A DNA stretch of 38,167 bases from Flavobacteriaceae bacterium (GTDB lineage Bacteria; Bacteroidota; Bacteroidia; Flavobacteriales; Flavobacteriaceae), in NCBI GenBank assembly GCA_002707745.1, contig PANU01000087.1:1-38167 (forward strand), read 5' to 3'. Shown here one piece after another: positions 25,285 through 32,371 of the stretch. Made by a program: the position numbers and the translations under genes. The first letter of the stretch is position 1. Each line of letters begins with the position of its first letter. Under the pieces are notes generated by a model. That model was not told the origin of the DNA and ran no database searches. It worked only from the letters and a program-made list of their open reading frames with translations.

Positions 25285-25339
25285 TAGCATTTACATAACC
25301 TAAAAGTAACGCTTTGCCCAGCAATTAGGTATAGTTTTG
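25285..25339 (+). promoter_or_regulatory. Pho-type promoter P1 upstream of the TonB gene
   Basis: Three heptamers start 11 bp apart: TAGCATT (25285), TAACCTA (25296), TAACGCT (25307). Exactly 22 nt after the last one comes the TTTG of a perfect -7 box, TAGTTTTG (25332-25339). The same geometry recurs in four other promoters here. It points toward the TonB receptor, about 130 nt downstream. Confidence 0.65.
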
Positions 25340-25364
25340 ATGCATAGCAATAGTATAAACCTCA

Positions 25365-25452
25365 TAACATTAAGATAACACAAACCTTACTTAATGCTAA
25401 AACAAGCATAACATTTAGGTAACCAGCAATGAAGCATTTCAAAGTTTCTTTG
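25365..25452 (+). promoter_or_regulatory. Pho-type promoter P2 with six in-phase heptamers
   Basis: Heptamers start exactly every 11 bp: TAACATT 25365, TAACACA 25376, TTACTTA 25387, TAAAACA 25398, TAACATT 25409, TAACCAG 25420. The TTTG of a degenerate -7 box (TTTCTTTG, 25445-25452) follows the last one after 22 nt. The layout places an activator dimer array over the -33 region and extends it upstream by about five helical turns. Confidence 0.75.
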
Positions 25453-25475
25453 CACCAAATGAATAAACTACTTTG

Positions 25476-28262
25476 ATGAGCAAATTATTTACAGCAGCAA
25501 TGCTATTATTTACTGCCTTAACGTTCGCACAAACTGGGACGATAGAAGGTACATTAACCGACAAAGATGCCAATGGGGAACCCTTGCCGTTTGCCAATGT
25601 TATATTAAAAGGAACCACAAAAGGAACCACTACCGATTTTGACGGCAACTATAGTATAGAAAATGTCCCCGTTGGAAGTTATGTGATAGAATTCAGTTTT
25701 GTTGGGTATGAAACTGTTGAAATTCCAAACGTAACCGTTGAAACGGACAAATTTACACGGATAGATGCAGCATTAGGAGCCAGCGCAGCAGCCCTGGACG
25801 AGGTATTTATTACCGTACAAACCAGCCGTGAACGTGAAACGGCCTTATTATTAGAACAAAAAGAAGCGGTAGCAATTAAAGAGAGTATTGGAGCGGAGCA
25901 AATGGGTAAGCTTGGTGTTTCTGATGCTTCAAGCGCCACCACAAAAATTTCGGGGGTTTCTAAAACAGACGGAAGCGGAGATGTTTTTGTACGTGGATTG
26001 GGAGACCGTTATTTATCGACAACGCTTAATGGCCTGCCCATCCCTTCGGACGATGTGGAGCGCAAGAATATTGGTTTAGAACTTTTTAACACCCGATTGA
26101 TACAGAGCATTGGCGTGAGCAAGACTATGTCACCAAATCTTACTGCAGATCAGGCTTCAGGAACTGTTGATATTACTTCTAAAGAGTTGAGTGGAAGTTC
26201 GGAGCTTTCTGCTAAAGTTGGGGCTTCCGTTAATACCAATGTGTTACAGGACGGTGTTTTTGACAATTTTAAAGTATCTCCTAATAGCGACGATGTTACT
26301 GCGGGAATTTATGTTAAGGACTTTTCAACCAGAAGAGCCATTACCGAGCAAACCTGGGCACCACAAACCGCAAGTTTGCCTGTAAACAATTCTGTTTCCT
26401 TCAGTATAGGAAAAAAATTAGGAGATCGTTTTAAAGTGTTGTTAACGGCCGGACAGAATAGTACCTATGAATATCAAAACGGGGTGTTCCGTCAGTTTCG
26501 TTCCAACTTTATCGATGACTCCATTCCAGATGCGATTACCTGGAAAAAGGAAGTAGCTACTTCGGCATTATTTACGACCAAGTTTAAGGCAGACGATAAT
26601 AATGATCTGAAGTTTACAGCCTTAGTGATCAATAAAATTACCGATCAGGTTTTTGAAGGAGGGCGTGAAGGAACGGCCACTATTTTTGAAGAAACCGATG
26701 AAGGAGAAGCATTTCAGTTTGTTCGCGATCAAAACCTAAAGAAAACCCTGGTTTCCGTAACACAGCTATCTGGAGATCACGATCTATCTGAAAACAACAC
26801 CCTTACATGGGCAGGAGGTTACAACTTTTTAAGTGCCGATGAGCCTAACCGAATTAGGAACGAAGTTAATTTCAATTTCACCGAACCAGGACAAGAAGAC
26901 CTGGTACAGTTAGGACGCACTGGTGGTTTTCAGCAACGTAAGAGTGTTCAAAAAATTACCGATGTAGAATACAATGGTCGTATTGCTGATATGCTTAAGA
27001 TCTATGATGATGAAACTAATAAGTTCAATATAAATGTGGGCGCAGATTACCGTAAAAAAACACGTGAGTTTCGTTCTATTTTCTATGGGGTTGAAGAAAC
27101 AGTTCTTAATGCTGTAAACCCTGAATCCATAGATGCTATAGCCGAAATTTTTACTCAAGAAAATTTCGATAATAATATTTTAAAGCTAAATGAGATAGAT
27201 CCGGATTTTTATGATGGAACGCTACAAAGTGTTTCTGGGTTTGCAAATTTTAGCGGTACGTTAGGCAAGTTAAGTGTAGCTGCTGGACTTCGTTTTCAAA
27301 AAGACGATATAGATGTAGACTTCGATGTGAACAACTTCCCTGGAAGAACCGGACAAGCTACTAAAAACTACCGCAGACTTTACCCATCATTTAATGTGAA
27401 ATACGAAATAAATGAAGAACATAGTGTTCGATTTGCAAACAGTACTACGCGAACTCTTCCAGAATTCAAAGAAATTGCTCCTTTTGAGTATGTTTCTCCA
27501 CAAGCGCAGGTTACACGAGGTAATCCAGATATTGAAGCCTCTACAAATTATAACTATGATTTAAAATGGGAGTTCTTTCCATCAAACGATCAGTTAGTTT
27601 CTTTGACAGGTTTTTATAAAGAAATAGAAGACCCTATCAATAAAGTACAAGATCGTGGAGCAGCTGGAATATTCTCTTACTTTAATTCTGCGGAGAAAGC
27701 TGAAGTATATGGATTAGAAGTTGAAACACGAATTAACCTTATGGCAGGAGACGAGCAACCTAAACTTAGACTTGGGCTAAATGCTGCACGCCTTTGGACA
27801 AGCCAGGATTTGAAAGATGAATTGGATGCAGATGGAAATTTAATACGAACATTTAAATACAACAACAAAACCGAAACAGAGCTCCAGGGCGCTTCAGAAT
27901 GGATCGTAAATACTTCTTTAAATTTTGAAACAAACCAAGAATATCCATTAGACGCAACCGTTGTGGCAAATTATGCAAGCGATAGAATTTTTGCTTTAGG
28001 TTCTCCAGAATTTCAATCCTCTGGAGATATCAACTACAATGAAGCTATTATAGAAAATGGTTTTGTCACCCTGGACGCTATCATAAACAAAGAGCTTAAC
28101 GATAATTGGACACTTGGTGTTCAAGCAAAAAACATATTAAATCCAGAGATAAAAAGAACGCAACTCATTCGCCCTAGTACAACAGGTGTGGAAAGCGAAG
28201 AAACGGTACTTTCTTATACCAAAGGTGTACGACTGGGACTTACTATTAACTATTCATTTTAA
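25476..28262 (+). CDS. TonB-dependent outer-membrane receptor, probably phosphate-linked
   Basis: Outer-membrane active transporter. The signal peptide ends TFAQ; an N-terminal carboxypeptidase-regulatory-like domain (about residues 22-100, GTIEGTLTDKDANGEPL) is followed by the plug (ISGVSKTDGSGDVFVRGLGDRYL) and a beta barrel ending in a terminal phenylalanine (INYSF). ATG at 25476 gives 928 aa. A five-codon ORF from 25459 (MNKLL, stop) overlaps this start as TGATG. Two Pho-type promoters lie upstream and a surface lipoprotein follows 30 bp downstream, as in SusC/SusD-like pairs though the partner is not SusD. Substrate unknown; a phosphate-containing compound is inferred from context. Confidence 0.9.
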   Translation: MSKLFTAAMLLFTALTFAQTGTIEGTLTDKDANGEPLPFANVILKGTTKGTTTDFDGNYSIENVPVGSYVIEFSFVGYETVEIPNVTVETDKFTRIDAALGASAAALDEVFITVQTSRERETALLLEQKEAVAIKESIGAEQMGKLGVSDASSATTKISGVSKTDGSGDVFVRGLGDRYLSTTLNGLPIPSDDVERKNIGLELFNTRLIQSIGVSKTMSPNLTADQASGTVDITSKELSGSSELSAKVGASVNTNVLQDGVFDNFKVSPNSDDVTAGIYVKDFSTRRAITEQTWAPQTASLPVNNSVSFSIGKKLGDRFKVLLTAGQNSTYEYQNGVFRQFRSNFIDDSIPDAITWKKEVATSALFTTKFKADDNNDLKFTALVINKITDQVFEGGREGTATIFEETDEGEAFQFVRDQNLKKTLVSVTQLSGDHDLSENNTLTWAGGYNFLSADEPNRIRNEVNFNFTEPGQEDLVQLGRTGGFQQRKSVQKITDVEYNGRIADMLKIYDDETNKFNINVGADYRKKTREFRSIFYGVEETVLNAVNPESIDAIAEIFTQENFDNNILKLNEIDPDFYDGTLQSVSGFANFSGTLGKLSVAAGLRFQKDDIDVDFDVNNFPGRTGQATKNYRRLYPSFNVKYEINEEHSVRFANSTTRTLPEFKEIAPFEYVSPQAQVTRGNPDIEASTNYNYDLKWEFFPSNDQLVSLTGFYKEIEDPINKVQDRGAAGIFSYFNSAEKAEVYGLEVETRINLMAGDEQPKLRLGLNAARLWTSQDLKDELDADGNLIRTFKYNNKTETELQGASEWIVNTSLNFETNQEYPLDATVVANYASDRIFALGSPEFQSSGDINYNEAIIENGFVTLDAIINKELNDNWTLGVQAKNILNPEIKRTQLIRPSTTGVESEETVLSYTKGVRLGLTINYSF

Positions 28263-28292: not shown

Positions 28293-30239
28293 ATGAAAAA
28301 TCTAAGAAATTTTACTAGAATTTTTGCGATACTAAGTATCGTACTAGCTGCTAGCTGTAGCAGTGATGACGACTTCGTTCAAAATGATGACGACACCGTG
28401 TCTGAAGAATTAGACCTTACAGGAGATATTACAGCAGACCGTATCCTTGACGCTACACAACAGTACACGTTGTCTGGACCTGTTTTAATTAAAGACGGAG
28501 CTAAATTGACCATTCCTGCTGGAACATTAATTATTGCTGAAGCGGGACAAGAAACCTACATTGCTGTAGAGAAAGGGGGTGAGATAGATATTCAAGGTAC
28601 TGCCAGCCTACCAGTAATTATGCGTTCTACCGCTGGGTCTCCGGGAGATTGGGGTGGTTTATTACTTTGTGGGAATGCACCAACTACTGAAGGTGTTAAT
28701 GTAATTGCTGAAGTAGGTGGATTAATCTACGGAGGTAATGAGCCAACAGATAGCTCAGGAAACATAGATTACCTTATCATCGAAGGTGCCGGATCACAAA
28801 TTAATCCAGACTCACAATATAATGGTCTTACGTTGTATGCGGTAGGATCAGGAACTTCTATCGACAACGTAGCTGTACTGAACGGTGCAGATGATGGTGT
28901 TGAATTTTTTGGCGGAACAGTAAGTGTTACCAACTTTTATTCTGAAAACAATGAAGACGATTCTGTAGATTGGACTGAAGGATGGAACGGAACTTTAACT
29001 AACTCTTATGTATTACATACACAAGAAGGTTTCTCTACTGCTGTTGAAGCTGACGGAGACAATGCGAACCCAAAACTTGTTAACTTTACCGCAAACTCTA
29101 CTGTAGGTGGAACTGCATTGCAGTTTAAGAAAGAATCTGGTGCGACCATTACAGGTCTTGCTTTAATTGGTTACGATATTTCATTGGATTTTAGAGATAA
29201 CGGTGCTTTTAGTAACGTGCAAATTGAAGGTGAAGATGCAAACCCCAATAATGCCTATGTAGCGGAGCCAACAGTAGACATCTCTACTTTTAGTTGGGTA
29301 AACTCTAACAACACTGGTGCCGAGGTAGTAATTTTAGAAGGCACTATAGCTGGAACTCAGACATTAGACCCTGGGACAAGTTATTTACTGGATGGTGCAC
29401 TTATTGTACCTAACGGAGCTAAATTGATAATTCCAGCCGGAACTAAAATTGCTGCTCGTCCAGGAGGACAGTCGGTTTATATAGCTGCACAGATTGGTGG
29501 GCAAATTGAAGTAAATGGTACTGCAGAGAATCCAGTTGTGATGTCGTCTGTTAGCGGACAACCTGGTGAGTGGGGTGGATTATTATTATGTGGTGATGCT
29601 CCAACAACCGAAGGGACAAATGTGATAGCTGAAGTTGGTGGCCTTGTTTACGGAGGTTCTAATGATGCTTCAGATTCTGGACAAATTAATTACTTAGTAA
29701 TTGTTGGTGCTGGAGCTCAAATTAACCCAGACTCTCAATTTAACGGCTTAACGCTTTACGCAGTAGGAACAGGTACAGAAATTAACAACGTAGCTGCCAT
29801 TAATGGAGCAGACGATGGTGTTGAATTTTTTGGTGGAACTGTAAGCATGACTAACTTCTATGCGCTTAACAACGAAGATGATTCTGTAGACTGGACTGAA
29901 GGATGGAATGGTACATTAACTAATGCATATGTACAAAACGATAACGCTGGTTTCTCTACTGCTGTCGAAGCTGATGGAGATAACTTTAATCCAAGTCTTA
30001 TAAACTTTACAGCTATATCCACTGTTGGTGGGACTGCCTTACAGTTTAAAAAAGAGTCTGGCGCTACCTTTACAAATGCTTTCTTAAGCGGTTATGATAC
30101 CAGAGTAGACTTTAGAGACAACGGAGCTCCTAGCAACGTAGTTGTAGACGGAACTCCATTAACAGGACCTGATGATGATGTGTTTAACGGGACTGCCGTA
30201 GACATTTCTATGTGGACTTGGATTAATGCAAGATTATAA
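28293..30239 (+). CDS. Beta-helix-like surface lipoprotein with internal duplication
   Basis: Lipoprotein with lipobox LAASC (C22), followed by SSDDD; an acid-rich stretch just after the cysteine is known in flavobacteria as a surface-export signal. The rest is two repeats of about 300 aa, each opening with an LDG/LSG-type segment and GAKLTIPAGT or GAKLIIPAGT and sharing GGLLLCG, AEVGGLIYGG, GADDGVEFFGGTVS, NNEDDSVDWTEGWNGTLTN and GGTALQFKKESGAT. The strand-rich, glycine-rich pattern suggests a right-handed beta helix. It lies 30 bp after the TonB receptor gene and is probably its partner. Relatives are, from memory, sometimes mislabelled as multidrug transporter. Function unknown. Confidence 0.8.
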   Translation: MKNLRNFTRIFAILSIVLAASCSSDDDFVQNDDDTVSEELDLTGDITADRILDATQQYTLSGPVLIKDGAKLTIPAGTLIIAEAGQETYIAVEKGGEIDIQGTASLPVIMRSTAGSPGDWGGLLLCGNAPTTEGVNVIAEVGGLIYGGNEPTDSSGNIDYLIIEGAGSQINPDSQYNGLTLYAVGSGTSIDNVAVLNGADDGVEFFGGTVSVTNFYSENNEDDSVDWTEGWNGTLTNSYVLHTQEGFSTAVEADGDNANPKLVNFTANSTVGGTALQFKKESGATITGLALIGYDISLDFRDNGAFSNVQIEGEDANPNNAYVAEPTVDISTFSWVNSNNTGAEVVILEGTIAGTQTLDPGTSYLLDGALIVPNGAKLIIPAGTKIAARPGGQSVYIAAQIGGQIEVNGTAENPVVMSSVSGQPGEWGGLLLCGDAPTTEGTNVIAEVGGLVYGGSNDASDSGQINYLVIVGAGAQINPDSQFNGLTLYAVGTGTEINNVAAINGADDGVEFFGGTVSMTNFYALNNEDDSVDWTEGWNGTLTNAYVQNDNAGFSTAVEADGDNFNPSLINFTAISTVGGTALQFKKESGATFTNAFLSGYDTRVDFRDNGAPSNVVVDGTPLTGPDDDVFNGTAVDISMWTWINARL

Positions 30240-30742: not shown

Positions 30743-30782
30743 TAACAATTTTGAAAGTATTTCATAACGTTATGGTAACATT
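30743..30782. promoter_or_regulatory. Heptamer array between the MORN-like gene and the small-RNA promoter
   Basis: On plus, TAACAAT (30743), a weak AAAGTAT (30754), TAACGTT (30765) and TAACATT (30776) are in 11-bp phase. Unlike the other arrays, no TTTG lies 22 nt downstream. It may bind the same regulator at a distance or act on the divergent gene. The rest of the 30698-31115 gap holds a palindrome, the P3 promoter, a short transcript and the P4 promoter. Confidence 0.5.
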
Positions 30783-30815: not shown

Positions 30816-30846
30816 CCAATGTTAAGTTTTCAAAACTTAACATTGG
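30816..30846. repeat. Perfect palindrome containing two inverted heptamers
   Basis: Two 15-bp arms around a single central base form a perfect palindrome. Each arm holds TAACATT in opposite orientation (30838-30844 plus; 30818-30824 minus). There is no T tail, so it is more likely a DNA operator than a terminator. Confidence 0.8.
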
Positions 30847-30860
30847 AGGCTTCAATTACT

Positions 30861-30915
30861 TAATAATAGCTTAATATTTAGGTTACATTCAAGCGACATA
30901 GATGTACTTATTTTG
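30861..30915 (+). promoter_or_regulatory. Pho-type promoter P3 driving a short transcript
   Basis: TAATAAT (30861), TAATATT (30872) and TTACATT (30883) start 11 bp apart. The TTTG of -7 box TTATTTTG (30908-30915) follows exactly 22 nt after the last. The four-base spacer TAGG before the last heptamer is the same as in P2. Confidence 0.65.
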
Positions 30916-30919
30916 TAGG

Positions 30920-31010
30920 GTCGTAAGACATGCACATCTGTAAATCGTTTAAGTTTTTGTCAACTAGATTTTAATGTGTACTGGCTACCTTTTTTAGGGT
31001 AGCCTTTTTT
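30920..31010 (+). ncRNA. Putative small RNA (or tiny-ORF mRNA) under Pho-type control, about 90 nt
   Basis: This unit is bounded by promoter P3 (TTTG ending at 30915) and an intrinsic terminator (30983-31010), giving a transcript of about 90 nt, typical of a small RNA. It sits inside the phosphate block and ends before the porin promoter. The only ORF noted is 14 codons, ATG at 30930 (MHICKSFKFLSTRF, stop at 30972-30974); it might be a peptide or chance. I do not recognise a known RNA family. The start site is inferred from the -7 box and may be off by a few bases. Confidence 0.55.
30983..31010 (+). terminator. Rho-independent terminator of the short transcript
   Basis: ggctacc pairs with ggtagcc over an 8-nt loop and is followed immediately by six T. 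It isolates the short unit from the porin gene. Confidence 0.88.
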
Positions 31011-31043
31011 ATTTATACGAACACAAAATAATAGTTATAAATT

Positions 31044-31087
31044 TAATCATTACGTAACATTCAGTTAACATTGGTTTTAGTTCTTTG
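31044..31087 (+). promoter_or_regulatory. Pho-type promoter P4 of the porin gene
   Basis: TAATCAT (31044, weak), TAACATT (31055) and TAACATT (31066) are in 11-bp phase. The TTTG (31084-31087) of a poor -7 box (GTTCTTTG) lies 22 nt after the second and 11 nt after the third heptamer. The two perfect copies have a CAGT spacer. Confidence 0.7.
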
Positions 31088-32327: not shown

Positions 32328-32371
32328 TAACAATTTGGTAACAAATGGGCTCATTTAATTTGTGACATTTG
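32328..32371 (+). promoter_or_regulatory. Pho-type promoter P5 of the PiT transporter
   Basis: TAACAAT (32328) and TAACAAA (32339) with spacer TTGG are followed after exactly 22 nt by TTTG of -7 box GACATTTG (32364-32371). Only four bases separate this from the ATG, so the transcript should be leaderless. Confidence 0.68.

Follow-up and report, generated by a model that had tools for sequence, protein, structure and literature searches.

The window analysed, meaning the whole stretch of 38,167 nucleotides from a Flavobacteriaceae bacterium, contains a gene for a TonB-dependent receptor, followed in order by those for a 648-aa lipoprotein, an OprO/P-family porin and a PiT phosphate transporter. 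Six TAAC-type heptamers, repeated at an exact 11-bp pitch with starts from 25365 to 25420, precede the receptor gene, and a second set of three is located further upstream. The two sets, each with the -7 box that it faces, are denoted P1 and P2, respectively, and are listed here along with the first two genes.

25285..25313, plus strand: P2 heptamers TAGCATT (25285), TAACCTA (25296) and TAACGCT (25307), at 11-bp pitch
25332-25339, plus strand: P2 -7 box TAGTTTTG, fitting the TAnnTTTG consensus, 25 bp after the start of the last P2 heptamer (25307)
25365..25426, plus strand: P1 array of six heptamers at 11-bp pitch, conserved family-wide: TAACATT (25365), TAACACA (25376), TTACTTA (25387), TAAAACA (25398), TAACATT (25409) and TAACCAG (25420)
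25431..25441, plus strand: in-phase seventh position, GAAGCAT, occupied by TTACA in most relatives
25445-25452, plus strand: P1 -7 box TTTCTTTG, off-consensus at TA, whose register with the array is shared by relatives
25476..28262, plus strand: TonB-dependent receptor (CarbopepD_reg, Plug and beta-barrel domains), 928 aa, starting with ATG, orthologues found
28293..30239, plus strand: 648-aa lipoprotein with two predicted beta-helix domains, co-directional with the receptor

For the receptor, the likely start codon is the ATG at 25476, not the TTG at 25473. The pair of beta-helices predicted in the lipoprotein corresponds to an internal duplication; the homologous lipoproteins encoded next to Flavobacterium phoBR (L177, L179, L180) measure about 400 aa.

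The first-pass annotation of this region had placed six heptamers at 11-bp steps from 25365 to 25420, and three more at 25285, 25296 and 25307: all nine positions are exact. Same-strand direct repeats of at least two heptamers at 11-bp pitch, the first property looked for in a Pho box array, are therefore present as sets of six and three units, at period 11 only. Matches to TAAC in the P1 set score 22 out of 24 at period 11; TAAC is perfect in only four of the six units, and the two in the middle are weaker (TTAC, TAAA). A score above 19 is found nowhere else on either strand of the window, nor at other periods from 7 to 16, and a score of 22 was never reached when the 228-bp intergenic region was shuffled 2000 times with its dinucleotides preserved. 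The start of the last P1 heptamer (25420) is separated by exactly 25 bp from that of the -7 octamer (25445). Compared with TAnnTTTG, the flavobacterial sigma-A -7 consensus, the P1 box lacks the A, as is the case for most receptor promoters. At the seventh position, the TAAC-type unit has been lost in the genus to which the window belongs, and CATTT is kept. In Flavobacterium psychrophilum the -7 octamer spans positions -12 to -5 relative to the transcription start (PMC9723704), and on this basis transcription is predicted to start around 25457 for P1 and around 25344 for P2.

Conservation was evaluated on 103 non-redundant receptor upstream regions, from relatives picked by receptor similarity and phylogenetically non-independent. 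A six-unit array (at least 18 matches out of 24 at period 11) is present in 72% of them, when 200 nt are scanned, and in 81% when start codons are refined; other scanned periods yield such arrays in 0–3% of the regions, and shuffles in practically none. Where arrays had been found blind to the promoter, a downstream TTTG occurs in one register in 70 of 83. The region is A+T-rich, and might in principle owe its periodicity to chance or to the expansion of a short tandem repeat: this origin is extremely improbable, being refuted by the comparative data. Neither the 2000 shuffles nor any other period reproduces the array, the linkers differ from unit to unit, and the array is present in divergent relatives.

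When the receptor upstream regions are anchored on the -7 box, TAAC is perfect at -69 in 91% of them, at -58 in 73% and at -25 in 97%; the bridging unit at -47 is perfect in 4%, with an A at -45 in all. TAA is nearly always found in the -36 unit, and the -14 unit reads TTACA. Judged from these sequences, the family layout is that of two 22-bp Pho-type boxes (-69/-58 and -36/-25), with a bridge made of a degenerate, in-phase half-site, and a proximal TTACA. In the window's genus the layout is 11 bp longer: strong units lie at -80, -69, -36 and -25, with two weaker ones in between, and the -14 unit is lost. Within the genus, conservation is no lower in the two middle heptamers (7/7 and 6/7 invariant) than in the outer ones. 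It had been anticipated that an alignment of relatives would contradict the array if the middle heptamers were not conserved and the phase were random. Within the genus both expectations fail; across the family the first one holds, the bridging unit being degenerate, while the phase is strict. The array is therefore more aptly described as a pair of Pho boxes with an in-phase bridge than as six equal heptamers.

Another possibility is that the proximal pair (25409/25420) and the -7 box suffice, the other heptamers being remnants or neutral repeats. The PiT promoters, which keep just the -36/-25 pair, and the degeneration of the family bridging unit would agree with it; yet the distal -69/-58 pair keeps the high frequencies of perfect TAAC given above among receptors only about 30–85% identical, and the middle units are nearly invariant in the genus, so that a function limited to the proximal pair is unlikely. 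The second property of a Pho box array, a constant position and phase with respect to the core promoter in place of the upstream promoter element, is found in the -36/-25 core and in the shared TTTG register, where the start site is a predicted one. The sequence upstream of the receptor is a real, strongly conserved Pho-type promoter array, composed of two bridged boxes.

The upstream set had been described as out of phase with the array and endowed with a perfect -7 box of its own. Both statements are confirmed: TAGTTTTG corresponds to the consensus, and the offset between the two sets is 80 bp, that is 7x11+3. Although mutually out of phase, P1 and P2 are each in the same register with their own box: in both cases exactly 25 bp separate the start of the last heptamer from that of the box, and two likely promoters may therefore be recognized. 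The proposal of two tandem Pho-type promoters is sustained to this extent, with support for P2 coming mainly from within the genus. The -36/-25 module of P2 and its -7 box are found in exact form in the window and in G003, while in G004 the spacing is 1 bp longer (26 instead of 25); the -7 box is invariant in the three species, while flanking sequences have diverged. Outside the genus, only one other locus (L145) features a similar second module accompanied by a -7 box, and P2 is therefore probably real but local. Having the same geometry as P1, it would be active as a promoter and would read through P1 into the receptor gene. Alternatively, the 25285-25339 segment might be a chance or accessory site for PhoB loading, or control the divergent HD-domain gene, rather than work as a promoter. 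The rarity outside the genus and the altered spacing in G004 may be seen as indications in this sense; its orientation and -7 box, in contrast, face the receptor, the box has resisted the divergence of its flanks, and only about 0.02 P2-like modules are expected by chance in shuffles of all 104 upstream regions. This alternative is rather unlikely, and P2 is here regarded as a probable second promoter.

Promoters of the same kind precede the porin and PiT genes.

31044..31087, plus strand: porin promoter, with TAATCAT (31044), TAACATT (31055) and TAACATT (31066), corresponding to units -36, -25 and -14
31080-31087, plus strand: porin -7 box GTTCTTTG; the last heptamer starts 14 bp before it
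32328..32371, plus strand: PiT promoter, with TAACAAT (32328) and TAACAAA (32339), corresponding to units -36 and -25 only
32364-32371, plus strand: PiT -7 box GACATTTG; the last heptamer starts 25 bp before it

The -36/-25 core and its register are common to the receptor, porin and PiT promoters; the number of units differs. Counting units with at least 3 matches out of 4 and in register with the -7 box, the mean is 5.1 for the receptor, 3.2 for the porin and 2.3 for PiT. The first-pass annotation had claimed more heptamers at the receptor than at the other two promoters, and paired loci bear this out: the receptor has more units than the porin in 23 of 26 loci and more than PiT in 29 of 29, the reverse never being observed, and the porin has more than PiT in 11 of 17, with one case of the reverse. 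At the same loci, the upstream regions of the HD, DXS and MORN genes contain 0.7–1.0 units and almost never an array; the third property of a Pho box array, its presence upstream of phosphate-acquisition genes (receptor, porin, PiT) and near absence from unrelated neighbours, is thus also found. As the paired counts hold and these neighbours score low, the larger number of sites at the receptor is a conserved property. That more sites translate into a stronger or more graded induction is our inference; cooperative binding with such an induction, as had been suggested, is plausible.

PstB was sought as a marker of the Pho system in ten genomes: it scores over the cut-off in G011 only and just below it in G003, with no match over the cut-off in the window's genome, which is 82% complete. 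The porin and PiT genes were used as Pho genes instead. As the window's genome yields no PstB over the cut-off, PiT and the porin may constitute its main phosphate route.

The regulator was considered next to the gene context of the array. Of 95 loci, 27 have the receptor gene divergent from that for a PhoB-type response regulator, with the array between the two; in G011 the receptor is found near pstS, pstB, phoU and a porin. The window's genome contains one full-length PhoB-type match (G000:C86:2475-3158), located on a contig other than that of the receptor; a PhoR-type kinase and a GT28-type glycosyltransferase are encoded after it. This protein scores below the cut-offs of its two best-matching NCBIfam families, both describing PhoB (TIGR02154, 216.1 vs 296.2 bits; NF053854, 211.8 vs 270 bits), and thus falls outside the PhoB equivalogs; because of these scores, the name PhoB-like relies on synteny.

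The linkage of 27 of the 95 receptors to divergent phoBR, together with the strong phosphate response of the F. johnsoniae counterpart, makes PhoB the most likely regulator of the array. The region is, in all likelihood, the control region of a phosphate-starvation receptor operon, where phosphorylated PhoB would bind the in-phase heptamers, with P2 upstream. An activator of the OmpR family, PhoB would bind the TAACATT-type tandem heptamers as head-to-tail dimers; with one heptamer about every helical turn, an 11-bp repeat would bring all sites to the same side of the helix. The proximal pair, at -36/-25 counting from the first base of the -7 octamer and about -48/-37 from the predicted start site, overlies the position expected for a -33 element, and from there PhoB would contact the RNA polymerase on the TTTCTTTG box. 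The distal pair (25365/25376), linked through the weaker in-phase half-sites, would add cooperative occupancy.

Complete relatives encode 4–5 proteins with a Trans_reg_C domain, any of which could bind 11-bp repeats, and the motif of Riemerella PhoP has been likened to that of ArcA (PMC9603813). The array might accordingly be bound by another response regulator of the OmpR family, such as an RprY- or ArcA-like one, its link to phosphate being indirect. This is improbable, in view of the head-to-head arrangement across the array, of the identity of the array-bearing genes (receptor, porin and PiT, some relatives also having pst genes nearby) and of the phosphate response of the F. johnsoniae counterpart (PMC8115612); PhoB is retained as the preferred binder. 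Two minor features accompany the divergent arrangement. An additional pair of heptamers, located at -88/-77 and not in phase with the array, occurs in 18 of 23 upstream regions with a divergent phoB vs 8 of 47 others, and might possibly mediate phoB autoregulation. A conserved TACTTTTG -7 box also faces phoB in divergent receptor upstream regions (e.g. L113, L121, L133).

The presence of similar modules elsewhere was evaluated genome-wide. When the gap between a TAAC pair and a downstream TTTG may vary from 10 to 40, no enrichment is seen (36 vs 45 in the reversed control); a signal emerges only under constraint, when the gap is exactly 25 bp and TTTGC is required (48 vs 13 in ten genomes). 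Two matches at gap 25, in C18 and C68, were dropped, as they overlap coding sequences. In the window's genome and five others examined (G004, G009, G016, G022, G025), moxR is preceded at 43–49 bp by an exact module; near-identical matches are found in G003 and G005. In the window's genome the exact module lies at G000:C8:10808-10852 (L190, L086), 45 bp before a moxR/DUF58 (Bat-type) operon. A module of the same geometry is also found at G000:C103:11477-11520 (L088), about 28 bp before the gene for a 957-aa M16 peptidase. The site definition TAA-N8-TAAC-N25-TTTG would be usable to compute PhoB regulons from sequence.

The E. coli Pho box has a 7+4 bp layout and the consensus CTGTCAT. The array resembles it in being composed of tandem direct repeats, one heptamer every 11 bp, at the position of an upstream promoter element. 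Unlike it, the window features a TAACATT core instead of CTGTCAT and would operate together with the -7 box of Bacteroidota; receptor promoters, moreover, usually consist of two boxes and an in-phase bridge, with the register fixed to the -7 box. In E. coli the direct repeats bound by PhoB are found upstream of pstS, phoA and phoB, and some promoters contain more than one PhoB site (PMC10294691).

The PhoBR locus of F. johnsoniae (Fjoh_0541-0549; PUSIV) includes genes for a glycosyltransferase, OprP, PhoR, PhoB, a TonB receptor and a lipoprotein; under Pi depletion the receptor (Fjoh_0545) is up by 8.0 log2 and the lipoprotein (FII) by 9.9 log2 (PMC8115612). On the basis of locus layout and domains, the window's receptor would correspond to Fjoh_0545. 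The same gene types (receptor, lipoprotein, phoBR, glycosyltransferase, OprP-type porin) are present in the window's genome; unlike in F. johnsoniae, however, phoBR lies on a separate contig, and the receptor gene is clustered with those for the porin and PiT. As F. johnsoniae OprP shows no induction, a net increase is not necessarily to be expected of each gene in loci of this type. The terms "Pho box" and "promoter" are absent from the text of that paper, where binding sites are not described (PMC8115612).

In Riemerella anatipestifer, the PhoP motif obtained by DAP-seq has the core TTTAACA, and a role in oxidative stress and virulence has been proposed; PhoP binds the moxR promoter in vitro, and moxR is down by 2.0 log2 in the PhoP deletion (PMC9603813). 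The TAACA core and the moxR target are shared with the modules found here, which offers a separate, indirect line of support for a PhoB-type regulator; a point of difference is that the term "direct repeat" is absent from that paper, where no analysis of the -7 register was seen (PMC9603813). The TAACTGA repeats of Beggiatoaceae, Cyanobacteria and some Bacteroidetes were considered and rejected: their letters are like those of the heptamers, but they are repeats of one heptamer mostly located just upstream of start codons, without 11-bp spacing ahead of -7 boxes (PMC4679880). PhoB of B. fragilis is known genetically, and no binding motif for it was found in the corresponding paper (PMC3547664). 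No Pho box defined for the phylum Bacteroidota was found in the limited literature searched; for the marine and plant-associated members of this phylum, limiting phosphate is a factor that shapes their ecology.

A further Pho-type module is found upstream of the porin, ahead of a candidate small RNA.

30861..31012, plus strand: whole segment, comprising the small RNA and, ahead of it, the Pho-type module, with TAATAAT (30861), TAATATT (30872), TTACATT (30883) and a -7 box at 30908-30915
~30920-31009, plus strand: candidate small RNA of about 90 nt, with a terminator at 30983-31010, between the MORN gene and the porin

The small RNA, apparently Pho-driven to judge from this module, is probably part of the Pho regulon and a feature separate from the receptor array. 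Its core, GTTTTTGTC, is found in all 26 porin loci (one genome being counted twice); compensatory changes occur in 9 of the 13 predicted pairs, all in the terminator stem. From 30947, the core segment GTTTAAGTTTTTGTC is complementary to GACAAAAACTTAAA (31092), the predicted first bases of the porin mRNA, whose leader is the only one of its form in the window's genome. Mean duplex energy is -20.3 kcal/mol for own pairs, vs -17.3 for swapped pairs and -8.7 for shuffled leaders; own pairing was matched by none of 20,000 permutations, the related sequences being non-independent. A covariance model, in a test only partly independent since some genomes belong to the training set, retrieves the RNA from 34 of 61 family genomes, usually with a single match in each. 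Among its matches, a porin gene is just downstream in 27 of the 30 loci examined; in the 24 loci with a readable leader, again including some training genomes, own pairing is better than swapped (-22.5 vs -19.6; 0 of 20,000). No Rfam match at the gathering threshold was found between 20000 and 36000; the nearest weak match of the small RNA is MicA (24.4 bits, E 0.12). Across Flavobacteriaceae, conservation of the small RNA extends to sequence, terminator structure and co-varying pairing with the porin 5' end.

Taken jointly, these data may tentatively be read, with slightly less than even confidence, as a quantised Pho promoter code, where units added to an in-register core pair (-36/-25) would set both strength and phosphate threshold, the same core driving a conserved, porin-pairing small RNA as a post-transcriptional brake or timer. 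The porin would add the proximal unit; the receptor the proximal unit, the bridge and the second box. The number of sites is fixed for each gene across many genera, and the resulting natural series of 2, 3 and 5–6 in-phase units, with one register and one type of -7 box, makes the relation of operator copy number to induction strength and threshold directly testable.

Upstream of the small RNA module, further TAAC heptamers occur on the plus strand at 30743 (TAACAAT), 30765 (TAACGTT) and 30776 (TAACATT), spanning 30743-30782 with no obvious -7 box; they are followed, on the same strand, by a hairpin, CCAATGTTAAG..CTTAACATTGG, at 30818-30849. Heptamers and hairpin are partly conserved in the genus.
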